Part shown: in pieces, positions 2 through 8,738 of the stretch
How positions within the stretch are numbered: position 1 is the stretch's first letter
Layout of the letters: each line of letters begins with the position of its first letter
NCBI GenBank assembly: GCA_027000685.1
Contig: JALTNN010000091.1
Span: 1 to 11,084 of the forward strand
DNA length: 11,084 bases
Source of the DNA: Microcaldota archaeon
GTDB lineage: Archaea > Iainarchaeota > Iainarchaeia > JAADDC01
Direction: 5' to 3'
Position numbers and translations under genes: made by a program
Notes under the pieces: model-generated
Seen by the model: the letters and a program-made list of their open reading frames with translations, nothing else
What the model was told of the DNA's origin: nothing
The model's database searches: none

Positions 2-610
2 GAGGCCTACCTCCTCGGTGTTCTCCTGATAATCATGGGTGTCGCCCACTCTTGGGGAGGACAGCTCGAGGCGGCTACGGTGTTCCCCACAAGCATTGTC
101 ACGTGGGTCATCGCGCTCGCGGGCTCTCTTGTCTTCTCCCTCTACTTCTATAAACACGTGAGGTGGCTTGCTGATGTCGTAGGACACCATAGAGAGATTG
201 GGATCGAGGAGACGGTGTTCAGGTACATAAAGATAACGATTTTCTTCCTCCTCATGTCCTTCCTCTCCTACTACCTCACAGTCTCTGGTCTCCCGTGGCT
301 CGCCCTCATCCTCTGGCTCCTCCTCATTCTCTATCCCGTGGCCGTGGCAGTTGACGACGTCGGAGAGCTCGACAACGTCCTCAGTAGCGTGGAGGCGTGG
401 ATGAGAAACCCCGCAGTGCTCCTCGAGTTCCTCTTCGTGGGAACGGTTCTCCTCCTCACGGCCTACTTCCTCGAGGTTCACCTCGGGGGAGTGGGTCTCG
501 TCCTCTCTGTTCTCCTCACGGTCCTCTTCACCATTCCCTTCCTAACAACCATCCTCTCCCTCGCCTATCTTCTCCGCTACCCCCTCACTCGGAGGGCTTT
601 AGAAGCCTGA
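2..610 (+). CDS. Multi-spanning membrane protein, C-terminal part (5' end outside window)
   Basis: The reading frame is open from the left edge, so the gene begins outside the window; about 202 residues are visible and it ends with TGA at 608-610. The first in-frame ATG, at 35, lies inside a hydrophobic helix and is unlikely to be the start. I see roughly six hydrophobic segments: one at the very start, one around IALAGSLVFSLYF, two back to back from about ITIFFLLMSFLSYYL to LLLILYPVAVAV, and two near the end (FLFVGTVLLLTAYF, then VLSVLLTVLFTIPFL). A charged loop carrying DDVGELDN lies between them. The protein must sit in the cytoplasmic membrane. I recognise no family, catalytic motif or transporter signature. 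The 3' end overlaps the opposing gene by 26 nt. Confidence 0.8.
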   Translation, partial: EAYLLGVLLIIMGVAHSWGGQLEAATVFPTSIVTWVIALAGSLVFSLYFYKHVRWLADVVGHHREIGIEETVFRYIKITIFFLLMSFLSYYLTVSGLPWLALILWLLLILYPVAVAVDDVGELDNVLSSVEAWMRNPAVLLEFLFVGTVLLLTAYFLEVHLGGVGLVLSVLLTVLFTIPFLTTILSLAYLLRYPLTRRALEA

Positions 611-1673
611 AGCGCGAGAAAAACTCTTCCACCTCTCCCCTCCTCTCTACCCTGTCCATCCCCTCAAGCCTCACGTAGATATTGCCAGATCTTGCGAGCT
701 CCCTCTTCCTCTCCTGATACCCTTCGAGTGCAGACGCGAGCTCTTCGAGTGTCTTGAGGGCTTCGGGGGCCGGGGAGGAGATAAACACTCTCTCGACATC
801 TATCACGACGAGGTCGAGCACCCTCCTGTCAGGAACCCTCCCGAAGGAATAGACAGGAATCTCGGAGACTTTTACACCATCCAGCTCCTCGGTGGACCAC
901 AGGATGGCGCCAGCCCCCCTCGAGATGGCGCGGAGGACTTCGAGGTGGTGCTCCTCGAGGGACGGCGGGACGTATATCGACGGAATGTCCACGTAAGGCC
1001 TCCCAATGAGATAATAGGCGAGGCCCTGGAACCACCTCTCGACGTCCGTCACCCTCGTGAAGTAGGTCTGGGCAAACGGCACAAAGGGATCGGAGATCCC
1101 CTTCACTTCGGCATACCCCTCGTAGATGGCCTCGAGGAGAGGCTTCGGGAGGAGGTAGAGGATGGAGTACTGGGTGAGGATCTTCCTCGCGACGCGTTCC
1201 TCCAGAGCCTCCTTCTTCCTTGCCATGCTGAGGAGGTCATAGACCGGAATCCCCAGTCTCGCGTACTTCCTGTACGCCTCCTCCATCCCGTACTCGATGA
1301 GCTTTATGAGGGCGAGCTCGCGTATGAGGGAGGATGTTATGAACGTGAGGTTCGTGTCCCTGACCCTCTCCTCCACCTCCCTCGCTATCTTCTCGGCGAG
1401 GGACTTCGGGATCCCCGTTTCCCGCGTGAGAGACTTCGTTATCCTCGACCTTGTGAAGGGCTCCTTCCTCAGGTCTGATCTCCAAACGAAGAGGTTCATC
1501 TCCCTCCTGAAGGACTCGGCGAGATCGGGGTTTATCTTCCTCAGCTCCCTGTATATCCCCTCCTCGTCCGGGGACTCGCCCACCGCTTCGAGAACCTGGG
1601 CTATCTCCAGGGGCGTTGCACCGAGATCCATGAGCTTCGCCACGACGCTCATGAGCCTCGGGCTGACGGCCAC
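585..1673 (-). CDS. ATP-cone protein resembling the N-terminus of anaerobic (class III) ribonucleotide reductase
   Basis: 362 residues from a GTG start; a later ATG is at 1652. GTG fits a leaderless transcript because a TATA box lies about 25 nt upstream. Residues ~61-147 read as an ATP-cone, the nucleotide-binding regulatory module of ribonucleotide reductases and NrdR: RSDLRKEPFTRSRI, then the IAREVEERV helix, a TSSLIRE helix, and AYRKYARLGIPVYDL, an ending typical of class III NrdD. The following YSILYLLPKPLLEAIYEG also resembles NrdD just after its cone. Similarity then stops: there is no glycyl-radical loop or zinc site, and the whole protein contains no cysteine, so it cannot catalyse ribonucleotide reduction. 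The C-terminal half (~200-362) is not recognised. It could be a nucleotide-sensing regulator or partner; that role is inference. It is divergent from the Lrp gene. Confidence 0.8.
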   Translation of the reverse strand: MAVSPRLMSVVAKLMDLGATPLEIAQVLEAVGESPDEEGIYRELRKINPDLAESFRREMNLFVWRSDLRKEPFTRSRITKSLTRETGIPKSLAEKIAREVEERVRDTNLTFITSSLIRELALIKLIEYGMEEAYRKYARLGIPVYDLLSMARKKEALEERVARKILTQYSILYLLPKPLLEAIYEGYAEVKGISDPFVPFAQTYFTRVTDVERWFQGLAYYLIGRPYVDIPSIYVPPSLEEHHLEVLRAISRGAGAILWSTEELDGVKVSEIPVYSFGRVPDRRVLDLVVIDVERVFISSPAPEALKTLEELASALEGYQERKRELARSGNIYVRLEGMDRVERRGEVEEFFSRFRLLKPSE

Positions 1674-1705: not shown

Positions 1706-1728
1706 GAGAGCGGTTCGTAATTTTAACT

Positions 1729-2205
1729 ATGAATCCGGAGCTCGACACCATAGACCTCAAGATCCTGAGAATACTCCTCGCAGACGGCAGGGCATCCTAC
1801 GCCCAGATTGCCAAGGAAACGAAGCTTTCTGACGTGGCCGTGAAGAAGAGGGTTGAGAAGCTGATGGCAAGGGGGATTATAAAGAAGATAAGTGCGGTGG
1901 TTGACAGGAAGAAGCTGGGCTACTACTACACGTTCTTCGTTGAGCTCAGGGCAGATCCGTCCGAGATCTACGTGGTCTACAGGAAGCTTCTCAGCTTTCC
2001 CAACATAATAGAGGTCTATGTGGTGGCCGGCGAGTACCCCATAGTGGCCAAGGGGATTGGCGAGAGCGTTGACGAGCTCAAGAGGCTCATAAAGGAGATA
2101 GGGAAGCTGGAGGGGGTCATTGACATAAAGACGTCCGTTGTGCTCGAGGGAACGGAGAAGGAGATAACGATACCCTCCAAGATAGGACAGAGGGTGCTCG
2201 GATGA
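1729..2205 (+). CDS. Lrp/AsnC-family transcription regulator
   Basis: 158 residues, the usual length for this family. Residues ~5-60 form the winged helix-turn-helix: DTIDLKILRILLADGR, then SYAQIAKETKLS, the recognition helix VAVKKRVEKLMARGII, and the wing IKKISAVVDRKKLGY. Residues ~65-142 form the RAM ligand-binding and oligomerisation domain, with VVAGEYPIVAKG at the effector-site loop and a closing LEGVIDIKTSVVLE strand. Family members bind DNA as dimers or octamers and often sense amino acids; the ligand here cannot be read from sequence. I chose the ATG at 1729 because a TATA box sits ~25 nt upstream, giving a leaderless mRNA, and because upstream in-frame codons run through the opposing gene. 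The stop overlaps the topA start (ATGA), so it heads an operon and may autoregulate. Confidence 0.93.
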   Translation: MNPELDTIDLKILRILLADGRASYAQIAKETKLSDVAVKKRVEKLMARGIIKKISAVVDRKKLGYYYTFFVELRADPSEIYVVYRKLLSFPNIIEVYVVAGEYPIVAKGIGESVDELKRLIKEIGKLEGVIDIKTSVVLEGTEKEITIPSKIGQRVLG

Positions 2206-3941
2206 TACTCATACTCGCTGAGAAGCCCAAGGCAGGGAGGAGAATAGCCGAGATTCTCTCGGGCGGAAGGTTCAGGACGGAGAGGGTCGGAAGAAGCGTT
2301 ATGTATATTTTTAACCTCGGCGGTCGAGAATATGTCGTCGTGCCCCTCCGTGGACACGTGATAGACGTCGATTTCCCCAAGGAGTTCTCGAGGTGGAGCC
2401 TGAAGAGGCTGAGGGAGCTCGTGCGGGCGCCCATAATGAGGAAGGTGACTGCGTGGAGGACCGTGGAGCTCCTGAGATCCCTCAAGGACAGGGTAGAGGC
2501 CGTAATAGTGGCCACGGACGCCGACAGGGAGGGCGAGGCCATCGGCTGGGAAGTCGTCGAGTACCTCTTCAGGGACAAGCCTGTTATGAGGGCCTGGTTC
2601 TCGGCCCTCACACCCTCGGAGGTGAAGAGAGCGTTCAGGAACCTGATGCCCCCGAAGACCCGTCTCGCCGAGGCTGCGTTCACGAGGAGGGAGGTGGACC
2701 TCCTCTGGGGGGCCGTTCTCACCAGGGCCCTTTCCCTCACCTCCGGGAGGAGGGGAAAGGAGTTCCTCTCTGTTGGGAGAGTTCAGACCCCCACCCTCGC
2801 CCTCGTCGTCGAGAGGGAGAGGGAGATTAGGGAGTTCAGGCCGAAGACCTACTACATCGTCTCCGCACTCTTCGGTGCGGACGCCCCGTTCTGGGGAACG
2901 CACCCGGAGAAGTTCTTCGAGAAGAAGAGGGCAGAGGAGATCGTGGAGAGGGTGAGGGGGAAGGAGGGCAGGGTGACGGAGTTTGCAAAGAGGACGGTGA
3001 AGGTACCCCGCCCCGCACCCTTCGACACCACGACGTTCCTCTCCGAGGCGAGCAGGGTGCTCGGCCTTCCTCCGAAGAAGGCCCTTGACATCGCCGAGGA
3101 CCTCTACATGAGCGGACTCATCTCCTACCCCAGGACGGACAACCAGACATATCCGAAGGATCTCGACTTCGCCGGAATACTCCGCAGGCTCGCCACGATA
3201 AGACGGTATGAGAGGTTTATCAGCGAGATAAGGCCTCCCTACCGTCCGTCGAGGGGGAGGAAGACGGAGGATCATCCACCCATCCACCCCGTTGACGTGC
3301 CGAGGGAAACACTTCCCCCGGAGCACGCGAGGGTCTATGACCTCGTGGTGAGGAGGTTTCTCGCCACCCTCCTACCAGAGGCAGAGCTGATGGAGAAATG
3401 GGCGAAGATCGACGTGGACGGAACGGTCTTTGTGGCAGAGGGGAAGACCGTGTTGAGGGAGGGGTGGATGGCTGTTTACCCCGTGAGGGTGGAGGAGAGG
3501 GAACTGCCCGACCTCAGGGAAGGGGAGCTCCTTCCCGTCCTCGATGTGAAGCTCGAGAAGAGGAAGACAAAGCCCCCTTCCCGCTACTCCCCCGGCGAGC
3601 TCGTTAAGAAGATGGAGAGCCTGGGCCTGGGCACGAAGTCCACGAGGGCCGAGATCATAGCGAAGCTCCACCGCAGGGGTTACATCACCGGGAAGAAGAG
3701 AATAAGGCCCACGCCGCTCGGCGAACTCGTCTATGACCTCCTTAGGGAGATTGCACCGGAAACCCTTTCACCTGCCATCACGTCCCGCCTGGAGGAGGAG
3801 ATGGAGAGGGTGGAGAGGGGGGAGAAAGAGAGGACGGATGTCGTGAACGCCTCGAGGGACATTCTTTCAAACCTCGTCGATGTATTTCTTAGGGAAAGGG
3901 AGACCATAAGGAGGAGGATGGAGGGTGGAGCTCAGGCTTGA
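2202..3941 (+). CDS. topA: DNA topoisomerase I (type IA), without C-terminal zinc fingers
   Basis: 579 residues. The enzyme makes a transient single-strand break through a 5'-phosphotyrosine and relaxes negative supercoils. Visible motifs: the Toprim domain (residues ~1-135) with catalytic Glu7 in ILAEKPK and the metal-binding DxDxE at Asp106, Asp108 and Glu110 in ATDADREGEAIGW; LSVGRVQTPTLALV at 189-202; active-site Tyr309 in GLISYPRTDNQTYP; and GLGTKSTRAEII at 475-486, typical of the family. The core is complete, but it ends at residue 579 with no CxxC zinc-finger repeats, which many TopA proteins have. The start overlaps the Lrp stop by 4 nt and its end overlaps the NFACT gene by 17 nt, so translation is probably coupled. 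Topoisomerase III-like naming is possible, since the core alone does not fully separate these groups. Confidence 0.95.
   Translation: MILILAEKPKAGRRIAEILSGGRFRTERVGRSVMYIFNLGGREYVVVPLRGHVIDVDFPKEFSRWSLKRLRELVRAPIMRKVTAWRTVELLRSLKDRVEAVIVATDADREGEAIGWEVVEYLFRDKPVMRAWFSALTPSEVKRAFRNLMPPKTRLAEAAFTRREVDLLWGAVLTRALSLTSGRRGKEFLSVGRVQTPTLALVVEREREIREFRPKTYYIVSALFGADAPFWGTHPEKFFEKKRAEEIVERVRGKEGRVTEFAKRTVKVPRPAPFDTTTFLSEASRVLGLPPKKALDIAEDLYMSGLISYPRTDNQTYPKDLDFAGILRRLATIRRYERFISEIRPPYRPSRGRKTEDHPPIHPVDVPRETLPPEHARVYDLVVRRFLATLLPEAELMEKWAKIDVDGTVFVAEGKTVLREGWMAVYPVRVEERELPDLREGELLPVLDVKLEKRKTKPPSRYSPGELVKKMESLGLGTKSTRAEIIAKLHRRGYITGKKRIRPTPLGELVYDLLREIAPETLSPAITSRLEEEMERVERGEKERTDVVNASRDILSNLVDVFLRERETIRRRMEGGAQA
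3910..3917 (+). promoter_or_regulatory. Strong Shine-Dalgarno site for the NFACT-R gene
   Basis: GGAGGAGG lies 7 nt before GTG 3925, inside the end of topA. With the in-frame TAA just upstream it fixes the start of the NFACT-R protein and supports translation within a polycistronic message. Confidence 0.7.
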
Positions 3942-4683
3942 CATCACAAAGAGCCTGTGGGAGAACGTGCAGGAGCTACACGAGCGACTGAAGAAATTGA
4001 AGAAGAAGAGAGAACGGCTGATAAAGCTGATAGAGGAGGAGGAGCGGAAGGTCCGGGAGGAGGGGGAGGCGAAGAAGGTTGCGGAGCTCAGGAAGAGGAG
4101 GAAGAGAGAGTGGTACGAGGCGTTCAGGTGGATGTTCACCTCCGGGGGACGGCTCGTCATAGGGGGGAGGGATGCGAGGACAAATGAGGTGATAGTAAGG
4201 AAGTACCTCTCTGAGGACGATCTCTTCTTTCACGCCGACATTGTGGGAGCCCCTGCTGTCGTGCTCAAGGACGGTAAAAACGCCACAGAGGGGGAGATAA
4301 ACGAGGCCGCCGTTTTTGCCGCCTCCTACTCAAGGGCGTGGAGACTCGGACTCCACTCCGTCCCCGTCTTCTACGTGGAGGCCTCCCAGGTATCCCTCTC
4401 CCCGCCGTCCGGCGAGTACCGTCCGAGAGGGGGCGTCATAGTGAGGGGGAAGAGGAACTGGCTCGAGGCTCCCCTCCGGCTCTACCTCGGCTTCGACGGG
4501 GAGAGGTTCTTCGTCTCTGCGGCGAAGACAGAGAAGACGAGGTTTCTCCTGACACCTGGAGGGGAGAGCAGGACCGACGTGGCGAAAAAGGTTATTCACG
4601 AGCTCGGACTGGGTAGCGAGTACCTCGACGACCTCCTCTCGCTCCTGCCCCCCGGCCCCCTCAACCTCGAGAAGGTCGTTTAA
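3925..4683 (+). CDS. NFACT-R (DUF814) protein, equivalent to the C-terminal half of Rqc2/RqcH
   Basis: 252 residues. Residues ~5-65 are a lysine/glutamate-rich coiled coil beginning LDITKSLWENVQEL, which matches the linker that precedes the coiled coil in full-length NFACT proteins. Residues ~66-190 are the NFACT-R domain: WYEAFRWMFTSGGRLVIGGRD, then RKYLSEDDLFFHAD, a YSRAW segment, PSGEYRPRGGVIVRGKRNW. Full-length archaeal/bacterial RqcH proteins (about 550-650 aa) bind tRNA and the 50S subunit of stalled ribosomes and extend the nascent chain. The NFACT-N and HhH domains are missing. An in-frame TAA at 3907-3909 lies 18 nt upstream, so no N-terminal extension is possible and GTG 3925 is the only sensible start. 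A strong SD (GGAGGAGG, 3910-3917) precedes it. Ribosome-quality-control function is inferred from the family and from the CDC48 neighbour. Confidence 0.9.
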   Translation: MELRLDITKSLWENVQELHERLKKLKKKRERLIKLIEEEERKVREEGEAKKVAELRKRRKREWYEAFRWMFTSGGRLVIGGRDARTNEVIVRKYLSEDDLFFHADIVGAPAVVLKDGKNATEGEINEAAVFAASYSRAWRLGLHSVPVFYVEASQVSLSPPSGEYRPRGGVIVRGKRNWLEAPLRLYLGFDGERFFVSAAKTEKTRFLLTPGGESRTDVAKKVIHELGLGSEYLDDLLSLLPPGPLNLEKVV

Positions 4684-4698
4684 ACACAACCATCCAGA

Positions 4699-7221
4699 GT
4701 GTTCTTCGTGGCGGAGGAAAAGAGAGAGGTAAAGCTCAGGGTGGCGGACGCCCTCCCCTCACATGTGAACAGGGGGATTGTTGCCATAGATTTACAAACG
4801 AAGAGAGAGCTCGGCATAGTCTTCGGCGAGATCGTGGAGATAGAGGGGAAGAAGAAGACTGCTGCCATTGCCTGGCCGGCACCCACCTCCGACATCGGCG
4901 AGAAGATAATAAGGATGGACAGGATAACGCGGGAGAACGCAGGAGTTTCCATAGGGGACGAGGTCGTTGTCCGCGTCGCTGAGTGGAAGCCGGCCAAACA
5001 GGTGGTCCTCGCCCCCGCCTCCGAGGACGCCGTTCTCCTGAAGGGATATGAGCACTACGTCCTCAAGTTCCTCCTCGGGCGTCCCCTCGTCAAGGGGGAC
5101 AAACTAATCATCCCCATCTTCAGGAAGAACCTCTACACCGTCGTTTCGACAAACCCAAGTGGCGTCGTGAGGGTGACGAACGCTACGAAAATCGTGATAA
5201 GGGAGGAGCTTGCCGGGGCCCTCACTGCCTCGTCCGTTTCCTACGAGGACATAGGGGGACTCTCTGACCAGATCCAGAAGGTAAGGGAGATGATCGAGCT
5301 GCCCCTGAAACATCCACAGCTCTTCAGGAAGCTCGGAATAGAGCCCCCAAAGGGTGTCCTTCTCTACGGCCCGCCCGGAACGGGCAAGACCCTCCTCGCC
5401 AAGGCCGTTGCCAACGAGGCAAACGCCCACTTCATAGCCATAAACGGACCTGAGATCATGAGCAAGTTCGTTGGCGAGGCGGAGGAGAAGCTGAGGAAGA
5501 TCTTCGAGGAGGCCAAGAAGAACGCACCCGCTATCATCTTCATCGACGAGATAGACGCCATCGCCCCGAAGAGGGAGGAGGTTCTCGGAGAGGTCGAGAG
5601 GAGGGTTGTGGCCCAGCTCCTGACACTCATGGATGGATTGGAAGCGAGGGGGGACGTCATAGTCATAGCCGCCACGAACAGGCCGAACGCCATCGATCCT
5701 GCCCTCAGGAGACCCGGAAGGTTCGACAGAGAGATAGAACTTCCAGTTCCCGACAAGAAGGGGAGGTTCGAGATTCTACAAATCCACACGAGGCACGTCC
5801 CCCTGGATGTCTACGACTCGGCAGACAGGGTTAGGAAGGTGGTAAAGGAGCTCGTTCAAGAAATAGAGGCCGCAGAGAGGGTTCTCGAGAAGATAAGGAA
5901 AGGAGAGGGAGTTAAGGACGCCATAAAGGACCTAAAAGGGGAACTCGGCCGGAAGCTCTCGAAGGAGAGTGAGGAAAGGGTGGGTGAGATTCTCGAGAGG
6001 GAGCTTTCCTATGCGGAGGAGCTCAGAGAGCTCTACAATAAGATAAAGAAGGCAAAGAACCTCGAGGAGATGAAGGGAATAATACAGTCGTCCTCCTACG
6101 TCGTTAGGGAGAGAGTCGAAACAGCCCTGAGAAATTCGCTCCTGTGGGAGCTCGCCGAGAGAACGCACGGCTTCGTGGGTGCCGATCTTGCCGCCCTCGT
6201 AAAGGAGGCTGCCATGAAGGCGCTCAGGAGGGTGCTCCCGAAGATAGACCTCGATAAGGAGGAAATTCCGCCCGAGGTTCTCGACGAGCTCGTCGTGAAG
6301 AGGGAGGACTTCGAAGAGGCTCTGAAGGAGGTGAGGCCCTCCGCCCTGAGGGAGGTGTTCATAGAGGTCCCCAATGTCCACTGGGACGATGTGGGAGGCC
6401 TCAAGGACGTAAAGAAGAAGTTGCGCGAGGCAGTAGAGTATCCGCTCAAACACAGGGATGTCTTCGAGAAGATGGGTATAGAGCCCCCAAAGGGTGTCCT
6501 TCTCTACGGCCCGCCCGGAACGGGCAAGACCCTCCTCGCCAAGGCCGTTGCCACGGAGAGCGAGGCAAACTTCATAGCCATAAAGGGCCCCGAGATCCTC
6601 TCGAAGTGGGTGGGAGAGAGTGAGAGGGCCATAAGAGAGGTCTTCCAGAAGGCGAGGCAGAGCGCTCCCACCGTGATATTCATCGACGAGATAGACGCCA
6701 TCGCCCCCATGAGGGGCCTCTTCCCCGACTCTCACGTTACTGACAGGATTGTGAACCAGCTCCTCACGGAGATGGACGGCATAGCCGAGCTGAAGGACGT
6801 CGTGGTGATAGCCGCCACGAACAGGCCGGACATCATAGATCCATCCCTCCTCCGACCCGGTCGGTTTGACAGAATAATATACGTGCCACCTCCAGACAAG
6901 GACGCTCGCCTCGAGATCCTGAGGGTCCACACGAGGAACGTTCCCCTCGACAAGGACGTTGACCTGGAAAAGCTCGCTGAGATGACGGAGAACTACTCTG
7001 GAGCGGATCTCATGGCTCTTGTAAGGGAAGCGGTGTTCATAGCACTTGAGGAGAGCGGTATGAAGCCCACTAAGGTGAAGATGAAACACTTTCTCAAGGC
7101 CATGGAGGAAGTGAGGCCCTCCCTGGACTCCGAGGTCGTGAAGTGGTACGAGAGCTTCGCAGAGACCATAAAGAAGATGAAGAGAAGGGCGAGGAAGGAA
7201 AGCCCGAACTACATCGGTTAG
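4699..7221 (+). CDS. cdc48: CDC48/VAT AAA+ ATPase
   Basis: 840 residues. This hexameric unfoldase pulls apart proteins and complexes and can feed the archaeal proteasome. Residues ~8-180 are the N domain (double-psi barrel plus a second subdomain). D1 has Walker A GPPGTGKT at 224-231, Walker B IIFIDE at 279-284, sensor Asn327 and arginine fingers near [10 protein letters not shown]2 has Walker A at 604-611, Walker B VIFIDE at 659-664, sensor Asn708 and RPGRFDR. Both ATPase sites look intact. Residues ~370-478, between the D1 core and its lid ([17 protein letters not shown]), are a long charged helical insertion absent from D2. The tail ends NYIG, with no HbYX proteasome motif. Start GTG 4699 fits family N-termini but lacks a clear SD; GTG 4708 is an alternative. 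It lies 15 nt after the NFACT-R gene, in the same frame. Confidence 0.97.
5338..5413 (+). repeat. 76-bp exact intragenic repeat, copy 1 (D1 Walker A region)
   Basis: Identical at every base to 6478-6553, exactly 1140 nt downstream. It encodes residues 214-238 of CDC48, including the D1 P-loop. The surrounding bases differ at many synonymous sites, so identity over all 25 codons is more than protein conservation requires. Confidence 0.95.
6478..6553 (+). repeat. 76-bp exact intragenic repeat, copy 2 (D2 Walker A region)
   Basis: Identical to 5338-5413; encodes residues 594-618 with the D2 P-loop. Two shorter identical stretches also link the ATPase domains: 29 bp around Walker B (5539-5567 and 6679-6707, same 1140-nt offset) and 21 bp at sensor 1 (5665-5685 and 6808-6828). 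Confidence 0.95.
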
Positions 7222-7907
7222 GTCTTGGGAACCTTTTTCAGCGTATATCCGGCCCTTTTCAGGATTTCAACCACCCTTTCCCTCCACATCCTTTCCGCCT
7301 CGTCCATCTTCTCTGGGTGGGTTACGAACTCCCTGAAGGTCTCTCTGAATACCCTGAGTAGTTCTTCGTCCCTGAGGATGTCTCTGGGTGTGGTGAGGAG
7401 GGATCTCAACCTCCTCATAAACGTCATAAGGTCCTTCGTCTCGGCCTCGTCGGGCTCGTACGTGTAGATGTCAAAGGGCCTTTCCCCAGCATTCTCCCCC
7501 CACATGTCGAGTATCGGAATGCGTTCGTGGAAGTACCTTGCTGCCAGGTAGGCCAGGGCCCTCGCGGTCTCGGGACTTTTCTTCCCCTCCTCCCACAGCT
7601 GTATGAGGCCGACGATGTGGAGGCCTGCGTCCGACAGCCTCTCGACGGATATGGTATTCCAAGGGAGGTAGTGGGCAACGAGGGCCGGCTCGTCTGAGAC
7701 TATCCCGTGCTTCACAGCGAGGAGGACACCCGTCCTCTTACCGTCCGGTGTTAAGAGCTCCGCTTTAAATACAGGGTTCACGGAGTTAACGATTTCCCTT
7801 ATTTCCACGTGGACAGGCTCTTCGACGAGAGAATGTTCCGCCCTAATCCTTACCCTGTCTCCTGGTTTTAGTCTGTGCCTGTCGATATCGCTAAGTCGTA
7901 CTTCCAC
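7218..7907 (-). CDS. Protein of unknown function, 229 aa
   Basis: I do not recognise a family. The first ~100 residues look beta-rich and contain [23 protein letters not shown], followed by strands such as [19 protein letters not shown] and a hydrophobic [20 protein letters not shown]. The rest looks helical and charged, with a [19 protein letters not shown] segment and a terminal helix ending [13 protein letters not shown]. There is no cysteine, no signal peptide and no membrane helix, so it is probably a cytosolic protein. The GTG start at 7907 is supported by a TATA box 25-30 nt upstream, implying a leaderless mRNA. Its TAA stop and the cdc48 TAG share the bases TTAG (4-nt overlap). Codon use matches the neighbours, so it is likely a real resident gene. 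No function is proposed. Confidence 0.82.
7234..7238 (+). terminator. Possible T-run terminator after cdc48
   Basis: A TTTTT run follows the cdc48 stop by 12 nt with no hairpin. Archaeal RNA polymerase can terminate at such runs. It lies inside the 3' end of the opposing gene, which weakens the call. Confidence 0.35.
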
Positions 7908-7955: not shown

Positions 7956-8738
7956 TCAGACGGGCCCCGGTAGCTCAGCCCGGCGGAGCGCCCGCCTCGT
8001 AAGCGGGAGGTCGCGGGTTCGAATCCCGCCCGGGGCTCTCACCCTTTTCGGATCCCAGAAGAGACCGCACCTACAGTGGCCCATCTCCCTTATCTCCTCC
8101 TCGTGCCAGTAGCACGGACATATCTTCTTCTTGTCCTCCTCGAAGTCCCCCGTTATCACCCTGCACGGACAGTACCGGAAACCATACGTCTTTTCGTTGA
8201 ACGCGAGTGCCGCTATAACTTCATCGAGCTTCTGCGGATCGGGGTTTAGCACGAACCCCTTCGCCCTAGCATAGACCCTTGCAAACCTCAGGATCCTCTC
8301 ATAGACCTCATCCCTCTCCACGAAGAGGGAAGCGTAAGCCTTCCATATGCACCTGTCCTCCACCACGAATACACCGAGAGGTTCTAACTTCTCCCTTGCG
8401 TAGGGACTCCTTATTCCCTCCTGCATCCAGAAGACGCGGGGAACCTTACCACTCTTGAGAATCTTGTCCACCAATCTTGGAACCTCCTCAGGGGGCCTGA
8501 AGACGACGAGGATTTCGAGAAACTCTTCGGGAACCTCCAAAATGTCCCCGAAGGTGGGCGAACCAAGAATACTCTCCGCGTGAGGGTTCACACAGGCTAC
8601 TTCGAAGCCGTGCTCCTTCATGAGTCTGGGTATGTCATGCGAGGGCTTGCCCTCGGTTCTCGAACATCCCACGAAGACGATCCTCGAGTACCTCAGGAAG
8701 ACCTCCTTGATCGGATCGTGGTTCTCAAGAGGGAACAC
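7956..8738 (-). CDS. CoA-binding domain (YccU-like) fused to a ferredoxin-thioredoxin reductase catalytic-type domain
   Basis: 260 residues from GTG 8738, with a TATA box ~24 nt upstream (leaderless). Residues ~10-138 are a Rossmann CoA-binding domain of the YccU type: SRIVFVGCSR, then EVACVNPHAESILG, PRVFWMQEGIR, and FVVEDRCI near its end. Residues ~145-230 match the FTR catalytic subunit: CPC (190-192), CPC (207-209) and CRC (222-224), then GLF. These six cysteines should hold a [4Fe-4S] cluster next to a redox disulfide that reduces thioredoxin-like partners. Family members normally end just after GLF. Here the frame continues through the antisense of tRNA-Thr, adding ~25 residues (GIRTRDLPL...). 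Losing one A from the run of four at 8045-8048 would place TGA right before the tRNA, so an indel or a true extension is possible. The fusion is unusual; its substrate is unknown. Confidence 0.88.
   Translation of the reverse strand: MFPLENHDPIKEVFLRYSRIVFVGCSRTEGKPSHDIPRLMKEHGFEVACVNPHAESILGSPTFGDILEVPEEFLEILVVFRPPEEVPRLVDKILKSGKVPRVFWMQEGIRSPYAREKLEPLGVFVVEDRCIWKAYASLFVERDEVYERILRFARVYARAKGFVLNPDPQKLDEVIAALAFNEKTYGFRYCPCRVITGDFEEDKKKICPCYWHEEEIREMGHCRCGLFWDPKRVRAPGGIRTRDLPLTRRALRRAELPGPV
7964..8037 (+). tRNA. tRNA-Thr (anticodon CGT)
   Basis: 74 nt with a complete cloverleaf and no intron. The acceptor stem is GCCCCGG/CCGGGGC (7 bp), the D-stem GCTC/GAGC, the anticodon stem CCCGC/GCGGG with loop CTCGTAA, the variable loop 5 nt, and the T-arm GCGGG-TTCGAAT-CCCGC. 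The anticodon CGT (7998-8000) reads ACG. The discriminator is T, as in archaeal tRNA-Thr, and CCA is not encoded. All stems are strongly GC, as in thermophiles. The opposite strand is read through by the end of the CoA-binding/FTR fusion gene. Confidence 0.97.
8045..8048 (+). terminator. Possible short T-run terminator for tRNA-Thr
   Basis: TTTT begins 8 nt after the tRNA 3' end. Short T-runs can end archaeal tRNA transcripts; no hairpin is present. Confidence 0.3.

Follow-up and report, generated by a model that had tools for sequence, protein, structure and literature searches.

A probable two-piece RqcH in Diapherotrites archaea, with the C-terminal half encoded beside CDC48

The eukaryotic ribosome quality control (RQC) complex comprises Rqc1, Rqc2, Ltn1, and Cdc48, and passages of two papers give Cdc48 and Rqc2 as joint members of it (PMC5989216, PMC6514570). 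According to section 13 of the latter, eukaryotic RQC goes back to an Rqc2 of ancient origin and to an archaeo-eukaryotic CDC48, and Npl4 and Ltn1 are eukaryote-specific; that section claims no partnership of the two in archaea. In this study, we analyzed an 11,084-nt stretch of archaeal DNA (hereafter the window), which makes up contig C91 of a 544-kb assembly that is fragmented and 79% complete. A preliminary description had placed a gene of the NFACT-R family directly ahead of a CDC48 gene, on the same strand and 15 nt away, and the coordinates and families of both genes proved correct by Pfam and NCBIfam. The window therefore holds homologues of two members of the eukaryotic complex, but their link here is gene adjacency alone. 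The explanation that we prefer, and regard as fairly probable, is that RqcH is made in two pieces in the phylum Diapherotrites and that its C-terminal half (C half) stands beside CDC48 through descent of a gene block within that phylum.

Pfam NFACT-R_1 (PF05670) matched the middle of the gene product (7.1e-29; Table 1). From the Pfam NFACT_N model only the tail, positions 370 to 412 of 456, was matched, and this below the cut-off; NFACT-N and the HhH domain are not in the same chain as the NFACT-R domain. NCBIfam RqcH_arch (NF041120; 645 positions) matched the protein at positions 381 to 641 (4.3e-80, 270.3 bits; the 400-bit cut-off applies to the whole protein), and positions 3 to 375 were matched by a separate gene of the same-class genome G075 (2.8e-63, 214.8 bits); the two halves tile the model with five positions between them. 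On sequence grounds, the window gene encodes the C-terminal half of RqcH/Rqc2 and not the whole protein, so the earlier label "NFACT (Rqc2-like)" was right for the family and wrong if taken to mean a complete Rqc2. When the two genes are joined end to end, the domains and their order are those of RqcH_arch, bacterial RqcH, and Rqc2/NEMF, with a D/E-R motif in the N-terminal half (N half) of relatives. RqcH is split in two at the coiled-coil arm: unlike in RqcH and Rqc2/NEMF, the protein is encoded by two distant genes, with the break probably at the coiled-coil M hairpin, and the window has the C half only.

Same-class genomes, which we call Diapherotrites on the basis of one named protein (P0020, the NFACT-R protein of G008, from the window's family, whose record names Candidatus Diapherotrites archaeon), were sampled for comparison, and NFACT-R was found in 76 of 87 genomes including the window's. 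NFACT-R frames above the cut-off were 136 to 307 amino acids long throughout the class, and none was full length. This length range bears on the idea that the gene is short through faulty assembly or through decay of a full-length rqcH, which the fragmented and incomplete assembly would accommodate. We consider that idea scarcely credible: the topoisomerase gene upstream is intact with no NFACT-N remnant, the frame runs for 252 amino acids without a stop, and the residues that are invariant among 82 aligned homologues (the window protein and 81 of 120 listed homologues, 153 having been found) are kept in the window protein.

The predicted fold of the C half, from an AF2 model and structure alignment, resembles that of NEMF and Rqc2. 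VIA-align paired model residues 27 to 250 with NEMF 490 to 1067 and residues 31 to 250 with yeast Rqc2 538 to 1018 (rmsd of about 6 over several domains), and matches to bacterial RqcH structures ended at residue 198 or 199. The C-terminal domain gave no Pfam sequence match; by structure alignment, which extends to NEMF 1067 and Rqc2 1018, it is an NFACT-C-like domain of archaeal/eukaryotic type. NFACT-C is the name of the corresponding domain in NEMF and Rqc2, and Burroughs and Aravind 2014 is reportedly the paper on NFACT. The long stretch that separates NFACT-R from the C-terminal domain in NEMF is absent here. The window protein begins with the second helix of the coiled-coil arm, and the region of the first helix is found in the N halves of relatives. 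The ends of the two halves would together form the M hairpin, an architecture of the arm that is treated in a passage of PMC8373112.

The eukaryotic protein CCDC25 likewise has NFACT-R without NFACT-N in the same chain, which raises the alternative that the C half acts alone as a nucleic-acid or ribosome binder, perhaps serving CDC48, the topoisomerase, or SecE, and that RqcH is no longer formed. We think this very unlikely. The window protein, unlike CCDC25, begins with a coiled-coil helix and ends with a NEMF-like C-terminal domain, and CCDC25 structure alignments end at model residue 187 to 198, short of that domain. The two halves also tile the RqcH model, and the relatives whose loci were fetched have a second gene for an N half, in which the DR (or ER) motif is present.

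The DR motif (D97/R98 in Bacillus subtilis) contacts tRNA in RqcH. NFACT_N matches in the class sit at other places in the genome than NFACT-R. At 20 such loci (19 of the class and one from G092, picked because they match NFACT_N), the N-half open reading frames (ORFs) were 321 to 458 amino acids long. A profile of 17 of these 20 N halves covered human NEMF 1 to 408, and its DR aligned with the DR of NEMF and of B. subtilis RqcH. The arginine was invariant (17/17), and the preceding residue, read by eye, was aspartate in 14 and glutamate in three. Where both halves are on one contig they are far apart, namely, at 862 and 1,117 kb in G012 (approximately 254 kb), at 553 and 703 kb in G016 (approximately 149 kb), and at 412 and 263 kb in G075 (approximately 148 kb). 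A convergent PRC-barrel gene adjoins the N half in 16 of the 20 loci.

Two such halves could work as one enzyme. The N half, with NFACT-N, HhH, the first coiled-coil helix, and the D/E-R motif, is encoded elsewhere in the genome in Diapherotrites, and the window supplies the second coiled-coil helix, NFACT-R, and the C-terminal domain. The chain would be interrupted at the β-hairpin (M domain) between the coiled-coil helices, a place where a break should leave the fold undisturbed. The halves would re-pair through the hairpin and the coiled coil into one RqcH on the 50S-peptidyl-tRNA complex, and the rebuilt enzyme would be expected to add Ala-rich tails. CDC48 would have come to lie beside the C half because the whole block, from the topoisomerase gene through the helix-turn-helix (HTH), NFACT-R, and CDC48 genes to the M50 protease gene, was inherited through the phylum; CDC48, as a general unfoldase, may act with the 20S proteasome in the disposal of chains that have been released or tailed.

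Next to NFACT-R, a CDC48_N match was found downstream, on the same strand and at a distance of 2 kb or less, in 68 of the 76 genomes. The adjacency is phylum-wide, whereas the preliminary description had named confinement to one genome as an outcome that would speak against its reading. The exceptions were of several kinds. In G044 and G056, apparent contig breaks lie between the genes, both of which are at contig ends; in G018 and G075, the genes are still neighbors with CDC48 on the opposite strand; in G081, 2.2 kb separates the two domains; and in G011, G051, and G062, the NFACT-R and CDC48_N matches are on different contigs, with NFACT-R located at a contig end or close to one in G051 and G062. 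We also considered a joint loss of NFACT-R and CDC48 in the window's family, where NFACT-R is missing from G001, G003, G004, G006, G007, and G009, and we make no such claim. Contigs stop within the topoisomerase match or at its end in G001, G003, G004, and G009 (G001:C31, G003:C74, G004:C39, and G009:C39, just ahead of the expected NFACT-R), so we read the absence there as an assembly gap. Only a second, weaker topoisomerase match was found in G006 and G007, which indicates that the conserved block itself is missing from them.

The neighborhood was then compared across 41 loci from 21 families (the window and 40 fetched loci), a set chosen around NFACT-R and thus favoring pairs that include it. 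NFACT-R and CDC48 were neighbors within 1.5 kb in 36 loci, in 34 of them on the same strand. CDC48 lies 1.7 kb beyond NFACT-R in L087 (G081), which was counted as a miss; the sequence ends within 0.7 kb of NFACT-R in L058, L070, and L084; and L060 (G011) is a real exception, where CDC48 is genuinely absent beside NFACT-R over the 3.3 kb covered.

These counts could be read as signs of a dedicated archaeal RQC module, in which NFACT-R and CDC48 are co-expressed, the C half recruits CDC48, and CDC48 extracts tailed chains from stalled 50S subunits for the proteasome. The proteasome family PF00227 was present in all 37 genomes of 37, with two genes in the window's assembly, and their products would be 20S proteasome subunits; proteins of this family also form rings in Escherichia coli. 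An archaeal Cdc48 homologue binds the 20S proteasome (a passage of PMC6017811), and the joint membership of Cdc48 and Rqc2 in eukaryotic RQC points the same way. Further support comes from the same-strand gaps between the two genes, which were 2 to 191 nt in 25 of 34 loci, and from the survival of the adjacency through local rearrangement. In addition, a second CDC48_N gene lies on the contig of the N half, on the opposite strand, in three genomes of the window's family, at 12.7 kb in G002, 2.7 kb in G003, and 13.9 kb in G005 (contigs G002:C27, G003:C68, and G005:C11). Proximity of this kind could favor a dedicated RqcH-CDC48 link, whereas the spacing argues against an operon.

The gene order around the pair gave a different picture, and we consider the dedicated module unlikely. 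The recurrent order in the 41 loci was topoisomerase, HTH gene, NFACT-R, CDC48, and M50 protease, the last on the opposite strand, with more genes on both sides. Pairs were counted in informative loci, which reach 3.5 kb past the gene on both sides or hold the partner (L058, L060, L070, and L084 are excluded; the NFACT-R gene of L055 was added by hand). NFACT-R and CDC48 were kept together in 36 of 37 such loci, topoisomerase and the HTH gene in 31 of 35, CDC48 and the M50 gene in 28 of 32 (27 on opposite strands), cluster 5 and the ATP-cone gene in 16 of 16 on opposite strands, and NFACT-R and topoisomerase in 28 of 38, the HTH gene often standing between them. Convergent and opposite-strand pairs are conserved almost equally, so that the phylum preserves its gene order even in places where a shared mRNA is not possible. 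The spacing toward CDC48 is also looser than that toward the HTH gene: the HTH gene and NFACT-R have a median gap of −1 nt, with 26 of 33 between −11 and +35 nt, whereas NFACT-R and CDC48 have a median gap of 65 nt in the 34 same-strand loci, with nine at 483 to 1684 nt. The tRNA-binding, DR-carrying N half lies outside the topoisomerase-CDC48 block. Inheritance of the block explains the NFACT-R-CDC48 pairing equally well.

Outside the class, we examined the 30 best-scoring loci of each search (from 110, 38, 59, and 59 matching genomes) and 40 chosen loci, and CDC48 was sought by tblastn around NFACT. The short loci reach 1.5 kb from the NFACT-R domain, and genes upstream of a full-length rqcH are visible in the 40 long loci only. 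CDC48 was beside NFACT in one locus of a 38-locus set (30 from families f29 and f30, three full-length, and five named records), in one of a 99-locus set (59 short and 40 long), and in none of the best 30 loci of the G089 phylum. Some loci of the 38- and 99-locus sets come from the same genomes, and the single case was G148 (f29) both times, where CDC48 lies behind NFACT-R with 686 nt between the genes. In a positive control with these queries, CDC48 was recovered at 24 of 30 loci, or 24 of 27 within the class; the six misses comprised G011, G044 (at a contig end), G032 (with CDC48 at 1.5 kb), and three full-length loci from outside the class. Among the loci sampled, the adjacency is therefore conserved in the class and not across archaeal phyla.

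Other neighbors take the place of CDC48 elsewhere. In f29 and f30, the NFACT-R half lies 0 to 124 nt behind secE in 28 of the 30 best-scoring short loci (L115 to L144), both misses beginning at a contig end, and secE precedes it in 17 of 18 long loci (L224 to L241), whose genomes overlap with those of the short set. We take f29 and f30 to be Micrarchaeota, with the Micrarchaeota record L051 nesting in f29 and L053 standing beside f29/f30 in the tree; L051 also has secE ahead of the NFACT-R half, and L053 is without it. SecE was above the Pfam cut-off in L051 and just under it in L238. In three of five f30 loci, ftsZ is directly ahead of secE, with a Pfam match to FtsZ in L239. In the phylum of G090, rqcH is directly behind scpB in four of 12 full-length loci. 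It is conceivable, though quite unlikely in our estimation, that the C half is a plug-in module that hands stalled chains on the exit side of the 50S subunit to different disposal machines, to CDC48 for chain extraction in Diapherotrites and to SecE of the translocon in Micrarchaeota.

The preliminary description had read the pairing as a hint that an RQC partnership predates eukaryotes, and had proposed conservation in related archaea as the check. In the loci sampled, the conservation holds within the class and fails outside it except for G148, and the hint itself is not borne out: block neighbors are kept almost equally, convergent ones included, the HTH gene is closer, secE or scpB stands next to the gene in other lineages, and the DR-carrying half is not in the block. 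Gene order in one phylum gives no ground to call a CDC48-RqcH link ancient. A dedicated coupling or physical link between RqcH and CDC48 in Diapherotrites is possible.

The history of the split was traced in a tree of 95 rows, in which 10 of the 30 loci of the G089 phylum were included. One clade, starred in the tree (54 rows, 98/95), unites 34 of 41 Diapherotrites C halves with all 20 Micrarchaeota-like C halves. The split genes of f31 and f36 group with a full-length gene (99/89), f31 standing beside the full-length L210 (100/91). Since their place is among full-length genes and away from the main split clade, RqcH was likely split at least twice. Position 369 of the NFACT_N model is where the f36 C halves start, and the window's starts at 369 to 370, so that fission probably recurred at a single site. 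In f36 (G090 phylum), which is a probable separate fission, both halves and an HTH gene are encoded on one strand, distances of 1.2 and 3.2 kb separate the halves, and ORFs of the opposite strand lie in between; this arrangement shows how such a split of RqcH can arise. The f36 loci are L205:1613-6709 and L206:3423-6458, with a winged-helix gene between the halves, and a near relative is full-length. A shared HTH partner was considered and rejected: the HTH genes that adjoin NFACT-R in Diapherotrites and those in f36 do not match each other outside the HTH region.

Several observations weigh against a two-piece RqcH that lies beside CDC48 through block descent. No N half was detected in the window's own assembly, either with the family model or with the protein of a genus mate; an assembly gap is the likeliest reason, and the N half is present in four genus mates (G001 to G004). 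Seven Diapherotrites C halves, five from the window's family, one from f2, and one from f3, fall outside the main clade, a placement that is not firm; the split in the window's family may have a separate history, or these sequences may be misplaced on a long branch or by odd composition. NFACT-R and CDC48 form the best-kept pair among those involving NFACT-R. The two genes are still neighbors in G010, G015, and G036, where no topoisomerase was found beside them, and in G018 and G075 despite the change of strand, and such persistence after rearrangement fits some selection.

The split two-gene RqcH is the more novel part of these results than the CDC48 pairing. In full-text literature searches covering titles, starts of abstracts, and passages, we found neither a split RqcH nor a link between RqcH and CDC48 genes in archaea, and the parts of PMC11237513 and PMC8407392 that were covered do not mention NFACT, RqcH, or DUF814. 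If the halves rebuild RqcH, they would provide a naturally split enzyme for studying archaeal ribosome rescue, and the break site would mark where the fold tolerates a cut. The narrowed field of search makes Diapherotrites the place where a CDC48-RqcH link is worth testing.

The CDC48 gene product has the N domain, two AAA modules, and the Walker A and B motifs of CDC48; Pfam assigned CDC48_N, CDC48_2, and two AAA domains, and the NCBIfam CDC48 model (TIGR01243) gave 1094.6 bits against a cut-off of 802.65. In these features it is like archaeal CDC48/VAT, from which it differs by an insertion of approximately 110 residues that separates the D1 core from its lid. This insertion is common to G002 of the same genus and absent from six of nine aligned CDC48s, and the CDC48 of G013 has a different, shorter insertion. 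CDC48 frames of 1100 to 1800 amino acids occur in G014, G024, G032, G037, G058, G073, G084, and other class members, and their lengths suggest inteins or large inserts.

On the plus strand of the window, an Lrp-type regulator gene is followed by the type IA topoisomerase gene, the NFACT-R gene, and CDC48, after which comes a gene on the opposite strand (Table 1). The topoisomerase and NFACT-R genes share 17 nt. The gap of 15 nt (4684-4698) to CDC48 is counted from the first GTG of CDC48, and an alternative in-frame GTG at 4708 makes it 24 nt; NFACT-R and CDC48 would share a common mRNA in the window. A TTTAAA at 4679-4684 lies approximately 26 nt ahead of the alternative GTG, a spacing that would presumably fit a separate CDC48 promoter. 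No clear TATA-like enrichment was seen in the 70 nt upstream of the CDC48, NFACT-R, and topoisomerase starts (37, 40, and 35 loci, respectively), the starts being uncertain.

Table 1. Features of the window, with positions counted from its first nucleotide
Feature	Position	Strand	Basis or remark
Membrane protein (by eye), 5' end outside the window; conserved-block member (cluster 5)	2..610	+	
ATP-cone protein; opposite-strand conserved-block member	585..1673	-	
Lrp/AsnC-type regulator, ahead of topoisomerase	1723..2205	+	stretch tested; start codon unsettled
Type IA topoisomerase; conserved-block member	2202..3941	+	Toprim and Topoisom_bac
C-terminal half of split archaeal RqcH/Rqc2 (assigned by sequence), 252 aa, GTG start	3925..4683	+	coiled-coil helix, NFACT-R, and NFACT-C-like domain
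Second helix of coiled-coil arm, residues 11-47	3955..4065	+	AF2 secondary structure; tail of Pfam NFACT_N model
NFACT-R domain, residues 67-175	4123..4449	+	Pfam NFACT-R_1 match
C-terminal domain, residues 184-250, corresponding in position to NFACT-C of NEMF/Rqc2	4474..4674	+	VIA-align structure alignment
CDC48, 840 aa, N domain and two AAA modules	4699..7221	+	Pfam, NCBIfam; GPPGTGKT and FIDEIDA in each module
CDC48 insertion of about 110 residues (371-480), between D1 AAA core and lid	5809..6138	+	alignment of nine CDC48s; helical by eye
229-aa protein, convergent with CDC48	7218..7907	-	no Pfam or NCBIfam match
CoA-binding/ferredoxin-thioredoxin-reductase-beta fusion gene	7956..8738	-	
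tRNA-Thr gene	7964..8038	+	

The 3' end of the fusion gene is antisense to the tRNA-Thr gene, and its last residues are encoded by the complement of the tRNA. A 1160-amino-acid frame at G000:C95:8017-9402, which is recurrent in the family, gave a 35% match to the topoisomerase; judged by its length, it is probably a reverse gyrase, and if so, it would point to a hot habitat.

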